A stretch of DNA of 64,000 nt from Streptomyces acidiscabies. Lineage in GTDB: Bacteria > Actinomycetota > Actinomycetes > Streptomycetales > Streptomycetaceae. A program made the translations under genes and the position numbers. The stretch is from contig NZ_JAGJBY010000001.1 of NCBI RefSeq assembly GCF_020010905.1, positions 806,001 to 870,000 on the forward strand. Direction: 5' to 3'. The number at the start of each line of letters is the position of its first letter. Position 1 is the stretch's first letter. The notes under the pieces were generated by a model. It was given only the letters and a program-made list of their open reading frames with translations. It was not told the origin of the DNA and ran no database searches. Positions 36,228 through 45,493 of this stretch are shown one piece after another.

Positions 36228-36344
36228 CAACGACGAAGGGCCCCACCGCGAACGGTGGGGCCCTTCGACATCGTGCCCGGTGAGGCACTGGCGGAGGATA
36301 CGAGATTCGAACTCGTGAGGGGTTGCCCCCAACACGCTTTCCAA
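36228..36344. repeat. Left attachment-site repeat of the tRNA-Ser island
   Basis: 117 bases identical to 45345-45461. The repeat contains a terminator-like hairpin (GGGCCCCACCG / CGGTGGGGCCC) and bases 36292-36344, which are the 3' half of tRNA-Ser(GGA) from the anticodon loop onward. After 36344 the sequence departs from tRNA, so this is a tRNA fragment. Confidence 0.93.
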
Positions 36345-36495: not shown

Positions 36496-37341
36496 TCAGC
36501 GCAGGAACGGTAGCCGTCGGCGCCGGGTGCCTTCTGCTGGCCGGTCGGGCAGCCGCGCGTAGCGGATCAGGGATGTTGGGCTGCCGGTACGGATCCACAC
36601 TGGGGCTCCGACGATGATGCGTTGCGCTCCAAGCATGTTGCCCGAAAGGCGCCAGCGGCTCTCGGTGAGTAGGACGTCGGTGTAGACCTGAGCGAACCAC
36701 TCGCTGTCATCTGCGTGGGCGAGCGTGTATCCACGTGTCCAAGGGCGGGCTTCGTGCTCTTCTTCTGTGCCGATGGAGCCTTGGTGCAGTGCAATGTTCA
36801 GAGCTTCCACCGACAGTTGTTCGGGATCATCCCATTGAGACGTGTTCCTGGTGCCTCGGCTCTCCAGCAGTTCGGCGATGGCGCGCCAGGCCGATGAGAA
36901 CCACCCGGCTTCGGGGGCGTCTGCTGGGCGCAGAATCCGTCCGGGGAAGTTGTCCATGCTGCCGAAGAGCACAAGATCGATCTGCTGGCCTGCACTGCTG
37001 GTCGTCCTGATGTGGAACATCGCCCCCTTGTCTCGCTCCGGCCCACCAATGAATCTGGCGATGTGGATCCGGCCGGCCCCCTTGGCGAAGCGAGCAGGAG
37101 GTGGCTTGTCGAGGGCGGAGGCCGCCTTGGCACCGATGTACTTTTCGATCTTGTCGGCCTTTTCGCGGCGGGTCAGGTCACCTCGGTTTCCGTTGCCGAA
37201 CTCGACCCCGATGCCTTGCAAGGCGGCCTTGAGAGTCCAGTTCGGCCGACTGTCCAGCTTGATGCCGTTGTCAGATGCGATCTCGGCAACGCGGCGCTCC
37301 GACCAGTACAAGTAGCTGCCCGCGTGGCCTCTTGGCACCAT
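36496..37341 (-). CDS. Island hypothetical protein (possibly SAVMC3_10250/DUF7019-like)
   Basis: 281 aa from ATG 37341, with GGAG seven bases upstream. It starts VPRGHAGSYLYWSERRVAEIASDNGI and has a central GAGRIHIARFIGG and a GQQIDLVLFGSMDNFPGR beta-rich part. These remind me of the SAVMC3_10250 family found in Streptomyces, but the match is from memory. No catalytic motif is obvious. Last gene in the leftward run of island cargo, 301 bp after its upstream neighbour; that gap holds nothing I can identify. Confidence 0.6.
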   Translation of the reverse strand: MVPRGHAGSYLYWSERRVAEIASDNGIKLDSRPNWTLKAALQGIGVEFGNGNRGDLTRREKADKIEKYIGAKAASALDKPPPARFAKGAGRIHIARFIGGPERDKGAMFHIRTTSSAGQQIDLVLFGSMDNFPGRILRPADAPEAGWFSSAWRAIAELLESRGTRNTSQWDDPEQLSVEALNIALHQGSIGTEEEHEARPWTRGYTLAHADDSEWFAQVYTDVLLTESRWRLSGNMLGAQRIIVGAPVWIRTGSPTSLIRYARLPDRPAEGTRRRRLPFLR

Positions 37342-37642
37342 CAGTTCTCCGCCCCACACTGCCCTGGTCCGCAGCGTATGCCTCCGTCGACCTCGGCACG
37401 GTGAACTTGCGCTCTTGTCTCCTGCAAGCGGTGAGGCTGCACGGCGAGAGCGGGCAGAAGACCTGAGCTTGGGAAGCTTGGGTTTTCCACGATCGACCGT
37501 TGGGCTGACCTGCGGTGGAGCGGCGCCTACGACTGGTGGGCGGCCGAGTGGTTCCCTGGTACTCCCCGTGGTTCCCCGCAGGATCTGGCACGTGTATGGC
37601 ACGCCGCAGCTCAGCCAAAGGCAGAGTTGCGGCGCACCGTGC

Positions 37643-38029
37643 TCAGGCGTTGACGATCTTCTGGACCTCGCGCAGCTTCTCATCCGCAGTCAGTGACGAG
37701 TGGTCGCCGCTCACCAATCCGTCCAAGGCGCTTCGTACGTTGTATGACTGGGGGCGCAGAATGGCATCCAGGACACGGGCACGCTCGCCCCCATCCCGCG
37801 TGTACACCCACAACTGCTGGTCCTTACGCGGCTCCGTGTTACACCGAGGATCCAAGACGGCGAGCGGGAAGTACCCGAGGCCAACGGATTCAAGCTCACG
37901 AGCAATTGAGCTGAGAACATGCTTGCCGAGTCTGTCGAAGCCCAATGAGGTCCGCAGACGCCCCAAGTTGTCTTGCATCAATCCGCCCTCGTCCTCGCAT
38001 GCCCCAGCCGTCTCCTGAAGATCAGCCAC
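37643..38029 (-). CDS. Island hypothetical protein, 128 aa
   Basis: GTG 38029 with GGGAGGGCGAA upstream. It begins with an acidic helix (MADLQETAGACEDEGG), then LGFDRLGKHVLSSIARELESVGLGYFP and a C-terminal DEKLREVQKIVNA. No family recognised. It follows the nucleotidyltransferase gene by 35 bp and is probably co-transcribed. Confidence 0.65.
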   Translation of the reverse strand: MADLQETAGACEDEGGLMQDNLGRLRTSLGFDRLGKHVLSSIARELESVGLGYFPLAVLDPRCNTEPRKDQQLWVYTRDGGERARVLDAILRPQSYNVRSALDGLVSGDHSSLTADEKLREVQKIVNA

Positions 38030-38064
38030 TTCGCCCTCCCCTGAAGTCGTCGACGCGTGCCGCT

Positions 38065-38376
38065 CTAATTAGCCGCGTCTTCTGATGGCCAAAAGCGCTT
38101 CGCATTTACACCTTCAATGAAATTGGTCTCTCTTTCTTCTTCTAGGCTAAGCGCCAGGATGTCAATCGGCGGATAGGTGACAAGGCTCCTTATTCTGTCG
38201 CAGATGTCATGCGCCAGGCTCAGATTTCCTTCTCTGTATACCAATAGAATATCGACATCCTTGGGTTGGCGATTGTCAGGCTTTATGGCGGAGCCGAATA
38301 CGTGTAGCTGCACCTCGGTGAGATTTACTGAACAACAGGTAAGGACCTGATCGAGGATTTGTTCGACGTATGGCAA
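38065..38376 (-). CDS. Minimal nucleotidyltransferase (MNT-like)
   Basis: 103 aa from ATG 38376. The polymerase-beta-type signature is complete: GS at 28-29, KDVDILL with Asp40 and Asp42, and the third acid Asp72 (PPIDILAL). It lacks any C-terminal sensor domain. Such short enzymes transfer AMP or similar groups, for example in MNT-HEPN antitoxin systems; no HEPN partner is next to it. GC content and codon use are clearly lower than in the flanking chromosome. It follows the 216-aa gene by 10 bp. Confidence 0.82.
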   Translation of the reverse strand: MPYVEQILDQVLTCCSVNLTEVQLHVFGSAIKPDNRQPKDVDILLVYREGNLSLAHDICDRIRSLVTYPPIDILALSLEEERETNFIEGVNAKRFWPSEDAAN

Positions 38377-38386
38377 GGTGGCTCGG

Positions 38387-39037
38387 TTACGGATTTTTTA
38401 GCGCTCCCATAAGGGAGCTCAGGTTCAATAGGCGAACGCCGGCGTGTTTGGCGTGCTCGAGTGCTGCCGCTGTCATCCTTCCATTGGGATTGGAGTTCAA
38501 CACGACGTCCATCCCTGGGTGGCGATCCAATGCCTTCACTAGAGCCTCCTCGCCGAACTCATATCCATATTCAACGGATACTGTGACGTCGGACATTCCC
38601 CCCGCTCGGGCAATCCGCATAGAAGACTCACAAATCATCTCGACTTGATGGGCCTGTGAGTGCTGACGCAAGATTCTTCTGGTAACGGTCACGTCGTTCG
38701 ACAAGAACCCCTGTGGGTCCTCCTCGGTCATCGACCAAAATACTTCGCTCATTGTCTGCACATCTGAACCCAGCTCGGTGGCGCGCTCGCGGGCAGACCA
38801 CAGGTAGTGCGAAGCTTTAGGGACCAGACAGATAATCGTCGGTATGTCATCCTGAAGAATCTGTTCCACCAGATCCGCGGACAAGATCTCCACCTGAACC
38901 GGCGCGATCGTTAGAGCAACACCATCCCTTCGAAGTACACCAAGACGGTTGGCGGAAAGGCGCTTCGATGACTTAACTGCGCTATGCTGCGCGATTTTGG
39001 GGATGAACCAATCGGTGAGATAGAGGATCTCAGTCAT
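38387..39037 (-). CDS. Unknown 216-aa protein coupled to the HNH gene
   Basis: ATG 39037 overlaps the HNH stop (ATGA). It looks like an alternating alpha/beta fold: IPTIICLVPKASHYL, DVTVSVEYGYEFGEEALVKAL, then DVVLNSNPNGRMTAAALEHA and GVRLLNLSSLMGAL. The final pattern faintly recalls the last strand-helix of Mrr-type restriction domains, but no clear E-x-K active site is seen. Low GC for the window. I do not recognise the family. Confidence 0.75.
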   Translation of the reverse strand: MTEILYLTDWFIPKIAQHSAVKSSKRLSANRLGVLRRDGVALTIAPVQVEILSADLVEQILQDDIPTIICLVPKASHYLWSARERATELGSDVQTMSEVFWSMTEEDPQGFLSNDVTVTRRILRQHSQAHQVEMICESSMRIARAGGMSDVTVSVEYGYEFGEEALVKALDRHPGMDVVLNSNPNGRMTAAALEHAKHAGVRLLNLSSLMGALKNP

Positions 39038-39741
39038 TTGTTCGCCTCGCTGAAGAGAGCTTCTGCCCGCTTCGGGAAGCGAGGCGCCGGCCCGAGGAGG
39101 GTTTCTCCTCTGTGTTTACTTTCTAGGGCGTTAGTATGTTGTCTAAGTAGTTCTGCCGTTTCCATCTCTCCAGCAGTGGCCAAATCCTCATTCACCTCGA
39201 CCAGTGCCACCAGGAGCCGATTGGTCGGCACGATTTCATTCAGGACACAATCGGACCAGATTGCAGCCTGCTCGCGTGAGTAGATTGCACCTGTCTCGGG
39301 GTTGGGCCCCTTCGTCTTGAACGACGTCATGTTGCGCAACAAAAGGCGTCTCGCTGCTTTCTGGGCAGCTCTACGATTGGCGAAGGTTGGTGTTCCGCCG
39401 ATGTAAGCAATGGCCCGCTGTCGGTCCTTCTTTGCTTTGAGTAGAGACTCGACAGGATAACTCTCGGGCGCTTTGTCAATTTTGGTGTGACAATTTGGGC
39501 ATAGGAGAACGATATTTGCCGGGTCATCCCGGAACTCTTGTGATAAATCAGCATTCGCACGTGGGCCGTCGTCGCTGTATGCGACAATGTGAGCCCGTTC
39601 GGCGATGGAGATAGACCTCTTGCGTGCGGGGTCGCTTGGAAAAAGAGTGGTATTGCACAGAAGGCAAGTTCCCGCCGATTCGGCAAACAGGGCACGATCG
39701 ACGTCTTGGCTCAGGCTCGGACGCCCCGAGACGCACGCCAT
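39034..39741 (-). CDS. HNH endonuclease of the island cargo operon
   Basis: 235 aa from ATG 39741 (MACVSGRPSLSQDVD); an in-frame GTG/ATG region up to 39777 is possible. Zinc pairs C26-x-x-C29 and C81-x-x-C84 frame an intact HNH core: His51 (ERAHIVAYSDDGPR), Asn76 and His85. The C-terminal 140 residues are helical (ANRRAAQKAARRLLL, LLVALVEVNEDLATAGEMETAELLRQH) and may be a partner-binding part. It heads the operon HNH, 216-aa protein, nucleotidyltransferase, 128-aa protein. Nuclease plus nucleotidyltransferase in an island suggests a defence module. Confidence 0.85.
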   Translation of the reverse strand: MACVSGRPSLSQDVDRALFAESAGTCLLCNTTLFPSDPARKRSISIAERAHIVAYSDDGPRANADLSQEFRDDPANIVLLCPNCHTKIDKAPESYPVESLLKAKKDRQRAIAYIGGTPTFANRRAAQKAARRLLLRNMTSFKTKGPNPETGAIYSREQAAIWSDCVLNEIVPTNRLLVALVEVNEDLATAGEMETAELLRQHTNALESKHRGETLLGPAPRFPKRAEALFSEANK

Positions 39742-39982
39742 CCAGCACTCCCCTTGTGAAGATAGTGTGTATCCCAAAGATCATGCCAGAGCCCACAACC
39801 TCCTGGCCACCGATTCGCCGATAAAGACCCGACGAGCGCGGAGCCGACCGCCCCAGCCACGACGTACCCCTTCTCTGGCATCAAGCGGCTGATTGCTATG
39901 CGCGCGGCGCGGGCGCCGGACGGGCTGGAGCGGGGCGGAGACAGGAGCGCAGGCCCGGCCGGGGGCTGGGCCTGCGCGCGGT

Positions 39983-40027
39983 GAGCGGAGCGAGCCGCCT
40001 TGAACCAGTAGAGAAAGTTGTAACTCA
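39983..40027. repeat. Island-internal repeat, copy 1
   Basis: GAGCGGAGCGAGCCG (39983-39997) and GAGAAAGTTGTAACTCA (40011-40027) occur here separated by 13 bases. At 44558-44588 the same two blocks are fused. The 40059-39742 gap otherwise holds no gene I can support. Confidence 0.7.
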
Positions 40028-40059
40028 CTGGGTTGGCAGGTCGTGATCACCGGGCTGCG

Positions 40060-41000: not shown

Positions 41001-41891
41001 CAACGGCTAACACAATGAGGTGGATCGACACTGATCGCCGTGTCCGAAGTGGGAGTTGAGCGTTCGGTCGGGTGTGGGGAGATCGCCGTGGATCGTGTCG
41101 GACGACCTGTGGGACCGCTTGGAGCCGTTGCTGCCGCAGCGTGAACGACGCTTTCGGTATCCGGGCTGTAAGCCGTTGCCGGACCGGGAGGTGCTGTGCG
41201 GAATCCTCTACGTGCTGCACACCGGCATCCAGTGGGAGTACCTGCCCCAGGAGCTGGGCTTCGGCTCGGGCATGACCTGCTGGCGTCGGCTTCGGGACTG
41301 GAACGAGGCCGGCGTATGGCAACGGCTGCACGAGGTCCTGCTCGCCGAGCTGACCGCGGCCTCGCGGCTGGACTGGTCCCGCTGCGTGGTCGACTCTTCT
41401 CACGTCCGGGCCCTAAAAGGGGGAGCCACACCGGCCCCTCGCCGGTCGACCGGGGCCGGGCCGGCTCGAAGCATCATCTGATCACCGACGGGCACGGCAC
41501 CCCGCTCGCCGTCCTGCTGACCGGCGGTAACCGCAACGACGTCACCCAGCTCCTGCCCTTGCCCGACGCGATCCCGCCTGTCTGCGGCCGCGTCGGCCGT
41601 CCCCGCCGCAAGCCCGACTCGCTCTTCGCCGACCGCGGCTACGACCACGACATCTACCGCGACCAGGTCCGCGAATGCGGCATCGTTGCCGCCATCGCCC
41701 GCCGTGGAACCCGGCATGGCACCGGACTGGGCACCTACCGGTGGGTGGTCGAGCGGAGCTTCGCGTGGCTGCACGGCTTCCGACGCCTGCGCATCCGCTG
41801 GGAACGGCGGGCCGACATGCACGAAGCGTTCCTCAAGATGGCCTGCTGCCTGATCACCCACCGACAACTCAGCTCATTGTGTTAGCCGTTG
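41001..41891 (+). mobile_element. IS5-family (IS427-type) insertion sequence
   Basis: 891 bp with exact 19-bp terminal inverted repeats CAACGGCTAACACAATGAG and a TTA target duplication on both sides (40998-41000, 41892-41894). The right TTA supplies the TAA stop of the neighbouring gene, so the insertion did not break it. Transposase in two overlapping frames. Confidence 0.95.
41056..41885 (+). CDS. IS5-type transposase made by -1 frameshift
   Basis: The first frame runs from about 41056 (TTG) or 41074 (GTG) to 41481, the second to TAG at 41885. They switch at CTAAAAGGGGG near 41413, where a -1 slip on AAAA joins VVDSSHVRALK to RGSHTGPSPVDRG. Together they give the N-terminal helix-turn-helix (DDLWDRLEPLLPQ) and the DDE triad: Asp in CVVDSS, Asp in FADRGYD, Glu in WVVERSFAWL. 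Programmed frameshifting is usual in the IS427 group, so it may be active. Confidence 0.88.
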
Positions 41892-42857: not shown

Positions 42858-44014
42858 GAGATCTTTAATGGCTGAGGTTACGGCGGTTGGGGGTCGAGGC
42901 CGGTCTTGGCGATGAGGCCGTCGATGAGACCGGGTCGGTACTGCATCTGTTTGAGTCGGCTCTTCACCAGCGTGGTGAGCTGTTCGAGGCTGTGTCTGGT
43001 GAGGTTGGCCAGGGACCTCTTCAGGTGCGACCACACGCCTTCGACCGGGTTGAACTCCGGGGCATAGGGCGGCAGCTGGTAGACGGTCAGCCATGACCGT
43101 GCGGCGATGAGTCGTCGCATGGTGTGGCTGACGTGCGTGTTCAAATTGTCCCAGACCAAGACGATGGGGCCGCCGAGCTGCTGGTGCGCGGCATCCAGCA
43201 GCCGGGCGTAGTCGGTCTCGGTGAAGCCCTTGCGCCGGCCTTTGGCAGGGCCGTGGTCCAGGTGGATGCGGTAGATCAGCCGTGGCCGACGGCCGTCTTT
43301 GGTGCAGATCAGCGCCGCGATCGAGACCCGTTTGGTGCCCGCGGCGGTGACCTTCACGACCGGGGTGCGGCCTCGACGGCCCCATGTGCGGCCTTTGGGC
43401 GGCCTCAGGCCCTGTCCTGCCTCGTCCTCGAAACAGAGCCAGGCGCCCAGGTCCGCCGCCTTCTTTTTATGACGGGCCACTGCTCGTCCTTCCAGGCGGC
43501 GATCCTCGGTTCGTCCCGCTCGGCGGCTCTGCGGGCCGGGATCTGCACGCTCCAGCCGATCCGGTGCAGCAGCAGGTCGAGCCCGGCCAGGGTGTACTCG
43601 GCACCGAACCGGCGGCGCACGATCTCGGCGATCCTCGCCAGCGTCCAGCACTGGTCACTCCAGCCGTACGCGGCCGGACCGGCTTCCAGCACCGTCTCCA
43701 GGGCCCGTAACTGACCGGTATCCAGCTTGCAGCGGGCACCACCCGGCCCCTTGGAGACCAGGGCCTGGCGACCGCCCGCGGCCAGTGCCCGCCGCCAGCG
43801 GTTCGCCGACATCCGCGTCACCCTGAACCGTCGGGCCACCTCCCCGTCACCAGCTCCCGCCTCGATCAGATCGGCTGCCGCGAGCCGGACTTGCTCGCGT
43901 CGAGCCCGCTCCTCGGCCGTCAGCCCACCGCCATCGGAATACCTCATCCCTCCGGCATAGCGCAGCCCACGGCAGACGTCACGACCCGACGTAACCCCCA
44001 CCATTAAAGATCTC
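42858..44014 (-). mobile_element. IS630-family insertion sequence
   Basis: 1157 bp with 14-bp perfect ends GAGATCTTTAATGG and TA target duplication (42856-42857, 44015-44016), as for the IS630/Tc1 group. Transposase on the minus strand in two frames. Confidence 0.95.
42878..43947 (-). CDS. IS630-type transposase made by frameshift
   Basis: The first frame begins near ATG 43947 ([18 protein letters not shown]) and holds two helix-turn-helix units ([37 protein letters not shown]). At AAAAAG near 43469 the reading passes to the second frame with the DDE catalytic part ([35 protein letters not shown]), ending at 42878. All three acidic residues are present, so it may be active. Confidence 0.88.
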
Positions 44015-44527: not shown

Positions 44528-44980
44528 TCACGGGTCTCGGTCCATCCGCTGTGCGGGGAGCGGAGCGAGCCGAGAAAGTTGTAACTCAGTCGGTTGTTCG
44601 GGGCGTGTGAGGATTGAAGTTGTATGCGCATGTGGGGAGTTCTGCGTGGTCTGTTGGTGTGCCAGTGGCAGGAAGGCCACTGGGCCTATGGTCCAGCTGA
44701 TGAGTGTGTGGGCATGGGTGACGGGCACCGGCCAAGGCATGCGGCGCAACAGGGCTCGGCGGGTGTTTATGCGCTGGGTGTAGAGCTGTTCCCATGCCTC
44801 CTGGGAGGCGTCGGAGTCGAGTTCCGGTGAGATGGTGCGCAGGATCGTGGGACCCAGTTGTTCGCCTCGGTCTCTGTGCGGGCGTCGTGGGGGCCGAAGA
44901 GTCTTGACGGCCGGCCGTCGTCCAGGTGCCGGGTCCAACATTCGCATCAGGAACCTGGGGGTAGCCATCGTGCTCAGCAT
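44528..44980 (-). CDS. Hypothetical island protein
   Basis: About 150 aa from ATG 44980 (GGGAAGG five bases upstream): MLSTMATPRFLMRMLDPAPG, then PTILRTISPELDSDASQEAWEQLYTQRINTRRALLRRMPWP. Codon use is plausible. The end runs through the repeat at 44558-44588, and one codon there is TTA. It is opposite to and partly overlaps the region just before the integrase remnant. Real but decayed, or spurious. Confidence 0.4.
   Translation of the reverse strand: MLSTMATPRFLMRMLDPAPGRRPAVKTLRPPRRPHRDRGEQLGPTILRTISPELDSDASQEAWEQLYTQRINTRRALLRRMPWPVPVTHAHTLISWTIGPVAFLPLAHQQTTQNSPHAHTTSILTRPEQPTELQLSRLAPLPAQRMDRDP
44558..44588. repeat. Island-internal repeat, copy 2
   Basis: GAGCGGAGCGAGCCG joined to GAGAAAGTTGTAACTCA; see 39983-40027 for the copy with a 13-base spacer. 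Confidence 0.7.
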
Positions 44981-45123
44981 GGGGGCCTTCCCGTCGTACG
45001 TCCGTGAAGAGTTCTGCCGTGACCGTGTGACCGTCGTCGCTGTCGTGGACCACGACCCGGTGCGCAAGCGTGCTGATCATGCTCAGCCCCCGTCCTGTGC
45101 TCTGTACGGAACGGCCGTCTCCA

Positions 45124-45296
45124 TGACTTGCCACACCGCCGTGACCGTCCTCCTGATCCTTGGCGTCCCGGACGTCGCAATCGACTCGATCATGGGTTGG
45201 GAGCCTGGGGGAGCGGCTCGGATGCGCGCCCGGTACATGCACGTGACGGGGACCATGCTCCGGAAAGTCGCGCAACAAGTCGGCGACGCGCTCTGA
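45124..45296 (+). pseudogene. C-terminal remnant of a tyrosine integrase
   Basis: Reads TCHTAVTVLLILGVPDVAID, then IMGWEPGGAARMRARYMHVTG and MLRKVAQQVGDAL, the end of an actinobacterial tyrosine recombinase with the nucleophile Tyr in ARYMHVT. The preceding box normally reads L-R-H-T-A; here the Arg is replaced by Cys (TGC, one C-to-T change from CGC). No start, N-terminal or core-binding domain can be found upstream. It lies 49 bp before the right attachment repeat, where int belongs. Confidence 0.8.
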
Positions 45297-45344: not shown

Positions 45345-45461
45345 CAACGACGAAGGGCCCCACCGCGAACGGTGGGGCCCTTCGACATCGTGCCCGGTGA
45401 GGCACTGGCGGAGGATACGAGATTCGAACTCGTGAGGGGTTGCCCCCAACACGCTTTCCAA
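45345..45461. repeat. Right attachment-site repeat of the tRNA-Ser island
   Basis: 117 bases identical to 36228-36344, running from 60 bp beyond the tRNA 3' end to the start of its anticodon loop. Includes a terminator-like hairpin (45353-45383). Confidence 0.93.
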
Positions 45462-45493
45462 GCGTGCGCCCTAGGCCACTAGGCGAATCCTCC
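45406..45493 (-). tRNA. tRNA-Ser (anticodon GGA), integration target
   Basis: Acceptor GGAGGAT/ATCCTCC with G73 and encoded CCA, anticodon arm CACGC-TTGGAAA-GCGTG, long variable arm and a canonical T-arm. The 3' half is inside the direct repeat, so the gene stays intact after integration. Confidence 0.96.

Follow-up and report, generated by a model that had tools for sequence, protein, structure and literature searches.

What might a bacterium gain from a compact operon that couples an HNH nuclease to a protein of no recognised family and to a minimal nucleotidyltransferase? Such an operon lies at positions 37,643 to 39,741 of a 64,000-nucleotide stretch of Streptomyces acidiscabies DNA (contig NZ_JAGJBY010000001.1, positions 806,001 to 870,000; hereafter the window), part of a genome of 11.0 Mb. 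An initial annotation, made from the letters of the window, had proposed its four genes as a candidate defence module. The module identified here has three genes, termed the triad, and is likely a so far unrecognised anti-phage module, a variant of nuclease-based defence modules. No published description of the triad was recognised among the papers listed in a survey of the open-licence literature.

Composition and distribution of the triad

All four open reading frames (ORFs) are present on the minus strand with the spacing originally described. The HNH endonuclease gene (39034..39741, 235 aa) overlaps by 4 bp the gene for a 216-aa protein, P216 (38387..39037); a gap of 10 bp leads to the nucleotidyltransferase gene (38065..38376, 103 aa) and one of 35 bp to a 128-aa ORF (37643..38029). 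The lower GC content was also borne out, with 0.538 for the triad versus 0.689 (6-36 kb) and 0.707 (46-60 kb) in the flanks.

The order HNH, P216-like protein, nucleotidyltransferase is found in all 19 counted loci (the window, L002, L005, L027, L029-L033, L038-L044, L048, L050 and L059), the nucleotidyltransferase being the third gene in every one. The hosts include Streptomyces, another actinomycete, E. coli, Vibrio, Rhizobium, Ensifer, Phaeobacter and Polymorphobacter, together with viral contigs. The 128-aa gene does not recur: tblastn brought up no relative of it among the other loci fetched (best E = 3.5), and neither Pfam nor PADLOC, NCBIfam or PHROGs offers a family for it at E ≤ 1. 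The four-gene reading was dropped for this reason, and the neighbourhood survey suggested at the outset upholds the joint travel of the first three genes only. On this comparison the module ends with the third gene, and the 128-aa ORF is a passenger outside it.

Recurrence of the triad exceeds chance. Seven loci were found via the HNH protein, which leaves P216 and the nucleotidyltransferase as independent finds there, and ten were found via P216, which does the same for their HNH and third genes; L039 was found with whole-triad DNA and is therefore not independent, and the window was given. In L038 the contig end cuts the HNH gene, whose residues 45-230 match, and HNH counts thus have n = 18. 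An HNH gene found mostly without its partners had been named as evidence against a module; all 18 loci with a full junction carry all three genes, and it is to these that the co-occurrence refers, since the 76 matches of the HNH protein search came without gene context. At the HNH-P216 junction the two genes overlap by 4 bp in 11/18 loci, with values from -14 to +4 in the rest; the P216-nucleotidyltransferase junction ranges from -152 to +10, with uncertain start codons. Outside the neighbourhood comparison stand the HNH-only loci L008-L026, the partial viral matches L034-L037 and L052-L054, and the near-duplicate plasmid matches H4, H5, H7 and H8.

Close relatives are rare. A P216 search of ~5.8 billion proteins returned 18 matches including the window, the 12 named ones all from Streptomyces or Kitasatospora, and a search with the nucleotidyltransferase returned four. 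P216 was found in three of 200 genomes of the family sample (one the window, one rejected), in the window and one of 392 genomes of the genus sample, in the window and one of 296 of the phylum sample, and in the window alone among 394 genomes of the class. HNH matches past 1e-15 occur in 19 of 394 genomes, the match being full-length in the window only and confined to residues 2-123 in the other 18. The P216 candidate rejected in the family sample, G127/L003 (E 4e-4, 56 residues), was excluded before the count; its translation lacks the P216 motif and has the look of a wrong frame.

The Streptomyces P216 query gave no match in plasmids, phages or viral contigs. Distant relatives were reached via an HNH alignment, a wider P216 alignment and the P216 proteins of L029, L030 and L032. 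HNH-led searches of viral contigs yielded seven with a full-length HNH relative; adjoining it are a second gene, 133 or 214-224 codons long, and a small third gene. The P216 proteins of three of these contigs led in turn to copies on plasmids of Ensifer, Rhizobium, Phaeobacter, Polymorphobacter and Vibrio. A search with the DNA of the L032 triad led to one E. coli genome of 5426, that of strain I4, where the triad spans L039:9989-11615.

A predicted Cap5-like nuclease and its partners

The HNH protein consists of an N-terminal Cap5-like HNH domain (~9-118) and a C-terminal helical bundle (~123-228), and matches Pfam HNH_2 and HNH. Both zinc pairs (C26/C29 and C81/C84) and the H51, N76 and H85 reported earlier were confirmed; H51, N76, C81, C84 and H85 are present in 18/18 loci, and C26 and C29 in 17/18, the exception being a short annotated model in L043. 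The PADLOC SAVED_HNH effector model of the cyclic-oligonucleotide-based antiphage signalling system (CBASS) matches at 3.5e-26 over residues 8-115, the HNH part only, and PDC-M68A matches at 3e-23 over residues 9-111, the HNH domain being the sole part of the triad that this model matches. The best matches of the predicted structure are Cap5 structures, and the domain as modelled is closest to CBASS Cap5. In Cap5, SAVED is described as binding a cyclic nucleotide, which leads to a tetramer and degradation of double-stranded DNA (PMC12804361). The triad shares the Cap5-type nuclease domain but departs from CBASS in three respects: beyond the HNH part there is no SAVED match in Pfam or PADLOC, the helical C-terminus standing in its place; no CD-NTase cyclase is recognised beside an enzyme of MNT (minimal nucleotidyltransferase) size; and there is a separate P216 protein. 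The likeness of the helical C-terminus to HEPN is a weak lead only.

P216 is internally duplicated and two-lobed, and is predicted to be a tandem pair of restriction-endonuclease-like folds, the modelled C half being assigned to that fold. The active site is not conserved. The PD-(D/E)XK signature, D...(D/E)XK, does not persist across the loci: D/E-x-K is absent from C-half columns 136-164 in all 19 loci and occurs in N-half columns 28-52 in 3/18 (L033 has no N half), which is not family-wide. P216 as an active nuclease was rejected because the catalytic motif is absent. What is conserved lies elsewhere: Y159 and A192 in 19/19 loci, Q125 in 18/19, N183 and P184 in 17/19, and N185 and G186 in 16/19, giving an NPNG motif (183-186) beside Q125 and Y159. 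The middle protein of L033 is a single 133-aa domain (L033:10680-11081), assigned from its position and a weak alignment, and may be an unduplicated form.

The description of P216 as unrecognised holds. In none of Pfam, NCBIfam, PADLOC and PHROGs does a family pass the cut-off, and the last three give nothing at E ≤ 1; Pfam gave one Epimerase row (0.085, below cut-off), to which the fold matches lend no support, and P216 as a metabolic enzyme was rejected. There is therefore no housekeeping family, a match to which had been set as grounds for abandoning the module. PADLOC likewise has no model for the P216 proteins of the window, L029, L030, L031 and L033, and for that of L032 only E2 (0.042). 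Tk-TIP26 and RPB5 are restriction-endonuclease-like fold proteins without catalysis; P216 differs from them in its tandem duplication and genomic setting. Its sequence is not convincingly related to any solved structure: a profile search of these gave four rows with E from 0.44 to 2.

A dead nuclease fold could also serve direct restriction, in which P216 would be a DNA-binding protein that recognises foreign DNA and recruits the HNH nuclease, with the nucleotidyltransferase as regulator. We consider this quite improbable. No domain that binds modified DNA was recognised in Pfam, PADLOC or NCBIfam, and plain restriction would leave the conserved third gene without a role. Nor is there a constant methyltransferase neighbour, although no systematic search for one was made: one lies ~1.9 kb downstream of the triad in L029, as a prophage gene, and presumably another, Dam-like and also a prophage gene, ~4 kb upstream in L048.

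The nucleotidyltransferase has the GS (G28-S29), D40, D42 and D72 that the initial annotation had assigned to it; the window thus carries the GSX10DXD motif as FGS-10-DVD, with D72 as third acid. F27-G28-S29, D40, D42 and E80 are conserved in 19/19 loci. Family matches are slight: Pfam Polbeta (1.4e-4) and NTP_transf_2 (0.002) both lie under the curated cut-off, NCBIfam MntA_antitoxin (0.029) lies far under it, and PADLOC PDC-S09 (9e-5) covers 30 residues only, so that the likeness of the triad to PDC-M68A and PDC-S09 is one of partial matches, to the HNH domain and to these 30 residues respectively.

The identity of this enzyme bears on whether the triad could be a signal-driven analogue of CBASS in miniature, in which the nucleotidyltransferase makes a diffusible or tethered nucleotide at infection, P216 senses it and the HNH protein cuts DNA. 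The Cap5-like HNH domain would suit such a scheme, as would a duplicated, two-lobed P216 beside the nuclease, SAVED being likewise duplicated, two-lobed and placed beside a nuclease. No SAVED match exists to support it, however, and none of the PADLOC cyclase models reaches E ≤ 1 with the 103-aa enzyme of the window; of five other third genes scanned, that of L033 alone gave cyclase matches, at a weak 0.023 to models 261 and 310 long. The scheme appears distinctly unlikely.

Genomic settings and proposed function

The triad is carried by P2-like prophages, other viral contigs, conjugative plasmids and an actinomycete island. In L048 it follows a P2-type gpA (phrog_91, 1.2e-289) and precedes portal and terminase genes, and in L050 it adjoins the portal gene (gpQ), the placement there being judged from the gpQ side. 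The gpA-gpQ interval of P2 has been described as a hotspot for anti-phage genes, P2 itself carrying old and tin there (PMC9122126). In L038 the triad is close to tail-fibre and baseplate genes. In five loci the genes found no more than ~4 kb from the triad include Shedu, Lamassu-type, HamA, dGTPase or QatA-like ones. When ten neighbouring genes from six loci were scanned with PADLOC, eight matched: a dGTPase (L027), SduA (L040), LmuA and LmuB (L041), a QatA-like N-terminus (L042), HamA (L043) and, in L039, PDC-M36A and an HNH model. The two without a match were a phospholipase D of L041 and a helix-turn-helix protein of L043. It is this context, of P2 hotspot, defence-gene neighbours and mobile elements, that supports a putative defence role.

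Integrases occur near the triad in L005, L031 and L032 and, by annotation, in L041, L042 and L044. That adjoining the triad in S. lavendofoliae (L005:10920-12479, minus strand) is split into two ORFs and may be broken. The integrases near several copies, and the occurrence of HNH proteins in phage DNA metabolism (seen in PHROG HNH matches), would fit a conserved mobile cassette that serves some other purpose, for example to repair DNA or to recombine its own element. The carrier elements differ, so that no single element needs the triad, and the position at a defence hotspot also speaks against such a role, which we regard as very improbable.

The small nucleotidyltransferase invites comparison with type VII toxin-antitoxin systems. 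MntA, one of the small MNTs (< 150 aa), is described as adding adenosine monophosphate (AMP) to a tyrosine of its partner HepT; its ATP/Mg site has D39, D41 and D71 (PMC7641770). The triad enzyme resembles it in size, in its GS and DxD elements and in the placing of D40, D42 and D72, but the third acid is His in 9/19 loci, the MntA_antitoxin match is the marginal one given above, the triad nuclease is HNH and not of a recognised HEPN family, and P216 is a third component. The MNT antitoxin gene is described as almost always first in its operon (PMC3710099), upstream of the toxin, whereas it is last in the triad. A plain addiction module, which would stabilise plasmids and prophages and protect against phages as a side effect at most, would account for a small operon of nuclease and MNT on plasmids and prophages, and MntA provides the precedent. 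It is nevertheless unlikely: the operon has three genes and ends with the putative antitoxin, the triad of two P2-like prophages lies in or beside the anti-phage hotspot, and the three genes have been kept together even though P216 identity between distant groups is only 13-26%. With no SAVED or cyclase on the one side, and with the MNT last and P216 added on the other, the earlier view that neither layout fits stands, and the triad by its composition is neither CBASS nor type VII toxin-antitoxin.

With SAVED and the cyclase missing and P216 and an MNT-sized enzyme beside the nuclease, the simplest synthesis is a nuclease controlled by nucleotidylation. We propose that the triad is an anti-phage DNase module switched by nucleotide transfer onto P216 or the HNH protein, in the manner of MntA acting on HepT, and give this reading a probability of about 0.45. 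P216 would bind the HNH protein and replace the SAVED sensor of Cap5. In the uninfected cell the nucleotidyltransferase would add AMP or another nucleoside monophosphate to P216 or to the HNH protein, the invariant Y159 being the first candidate acceptor on P216. Infection would remove or block this mark, allowing HNH domains to pair and DNA to be degraded, which would kill the phage or the infected cell. We infer P216 to be an adaptor or acceptor, and its binding, the target, the direction of control and the trigger are inferred with it. A more specific version, which is rather unlikely, is a new class of immune switch: the Cap5 DNA-cutting domain would have exchanged cyclic-nucleotide control for covalent nucleotidylation, and a dead, duplicated P216 sensor would accept the nucleotide at Tyr159 and gate the nuclease during infection.

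Several observations weigh against this proposal. With His as third acid, transfer activity may be changed or lacking; the residue there is D in 9/19 loci, E in 1/19 and H in the remainder. The spacing from GS to DxD is 10 in 3/19 loci and 7-9 in 16/19. The position of the nucleotidyltransferase gene is the reverse of that usual for MNT antitoxins. For the fold of P216, Foldseek gave no row at E ≤ 0.001, and the best VIA-align Z of 9.2 is slightly over the 7-8 usual without a clear match. The ten genes of the PADLOC neighbour scan were chosen by eye and without a background control.

If the proposal is correct, a widely spread anti-phage module exists of which PADLOC 2.0 sees little beyond a stray CBASS-like HNH domain, and some HNH genes now called orphan CBASS effectors may belong to the triad. 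One DNase domain would be under cyclic nucleotides in one system and under a different partner in another, and dead nuclease folds could act as immune regulators. The three genes are short (~1.7 kb) and one copy is from E. coli, so the question is testable in a standard laboratory host.

The carrier element in the window

The location inside an integrative element, recognised in the initial annotation, was confirmed. Two direct repeats of 117 bp, att-like and perfectly matched, bound the segment that bears the triad (36228..36344 and 45345..45461), and the right one overlaps the 3' part of a tRNA-Ser(GGA) gene (45406..45493, minus strand), the probable integration target. In G009, the single relative compared out of 40, 724 bp separate the matched flanks (4302451 and 4301726). 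The corresponding distance in the window is ~9.2 kb, most of which is therefore extra; the G009 site is not a perfectly clean empty site, ~0.6 kb there being unaccounted for. The repeats at tRNA-Ser and the G009 spacing together place the triad within an integrated element of ~9.1 kb.

The integrase of the element is not clearly preserved: an ORF at 44832-45296, which we take by eye to resemble a recombinase C-terminus, has no PHROGs match. A 395-aa ORF (36496-37683, minus strand) adjoins the left repeat inside the element; its annotated start overlaps the 128-aa ORF, and it matches NCBIfam SAVMC3_10250 weakly (2.1e-8, under cut-off). ORFs at 41056-41885 (plus strand) and 42878-44004 (minus strand), which we take to resemble IS5- and IS630-type transposases, are probably later insertions. 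An imperfect direct repeat pair (82-95%), at 39978-40035 just upstream of the triad and at 44553-44596 near the right end, is a possible trace of an inner element.
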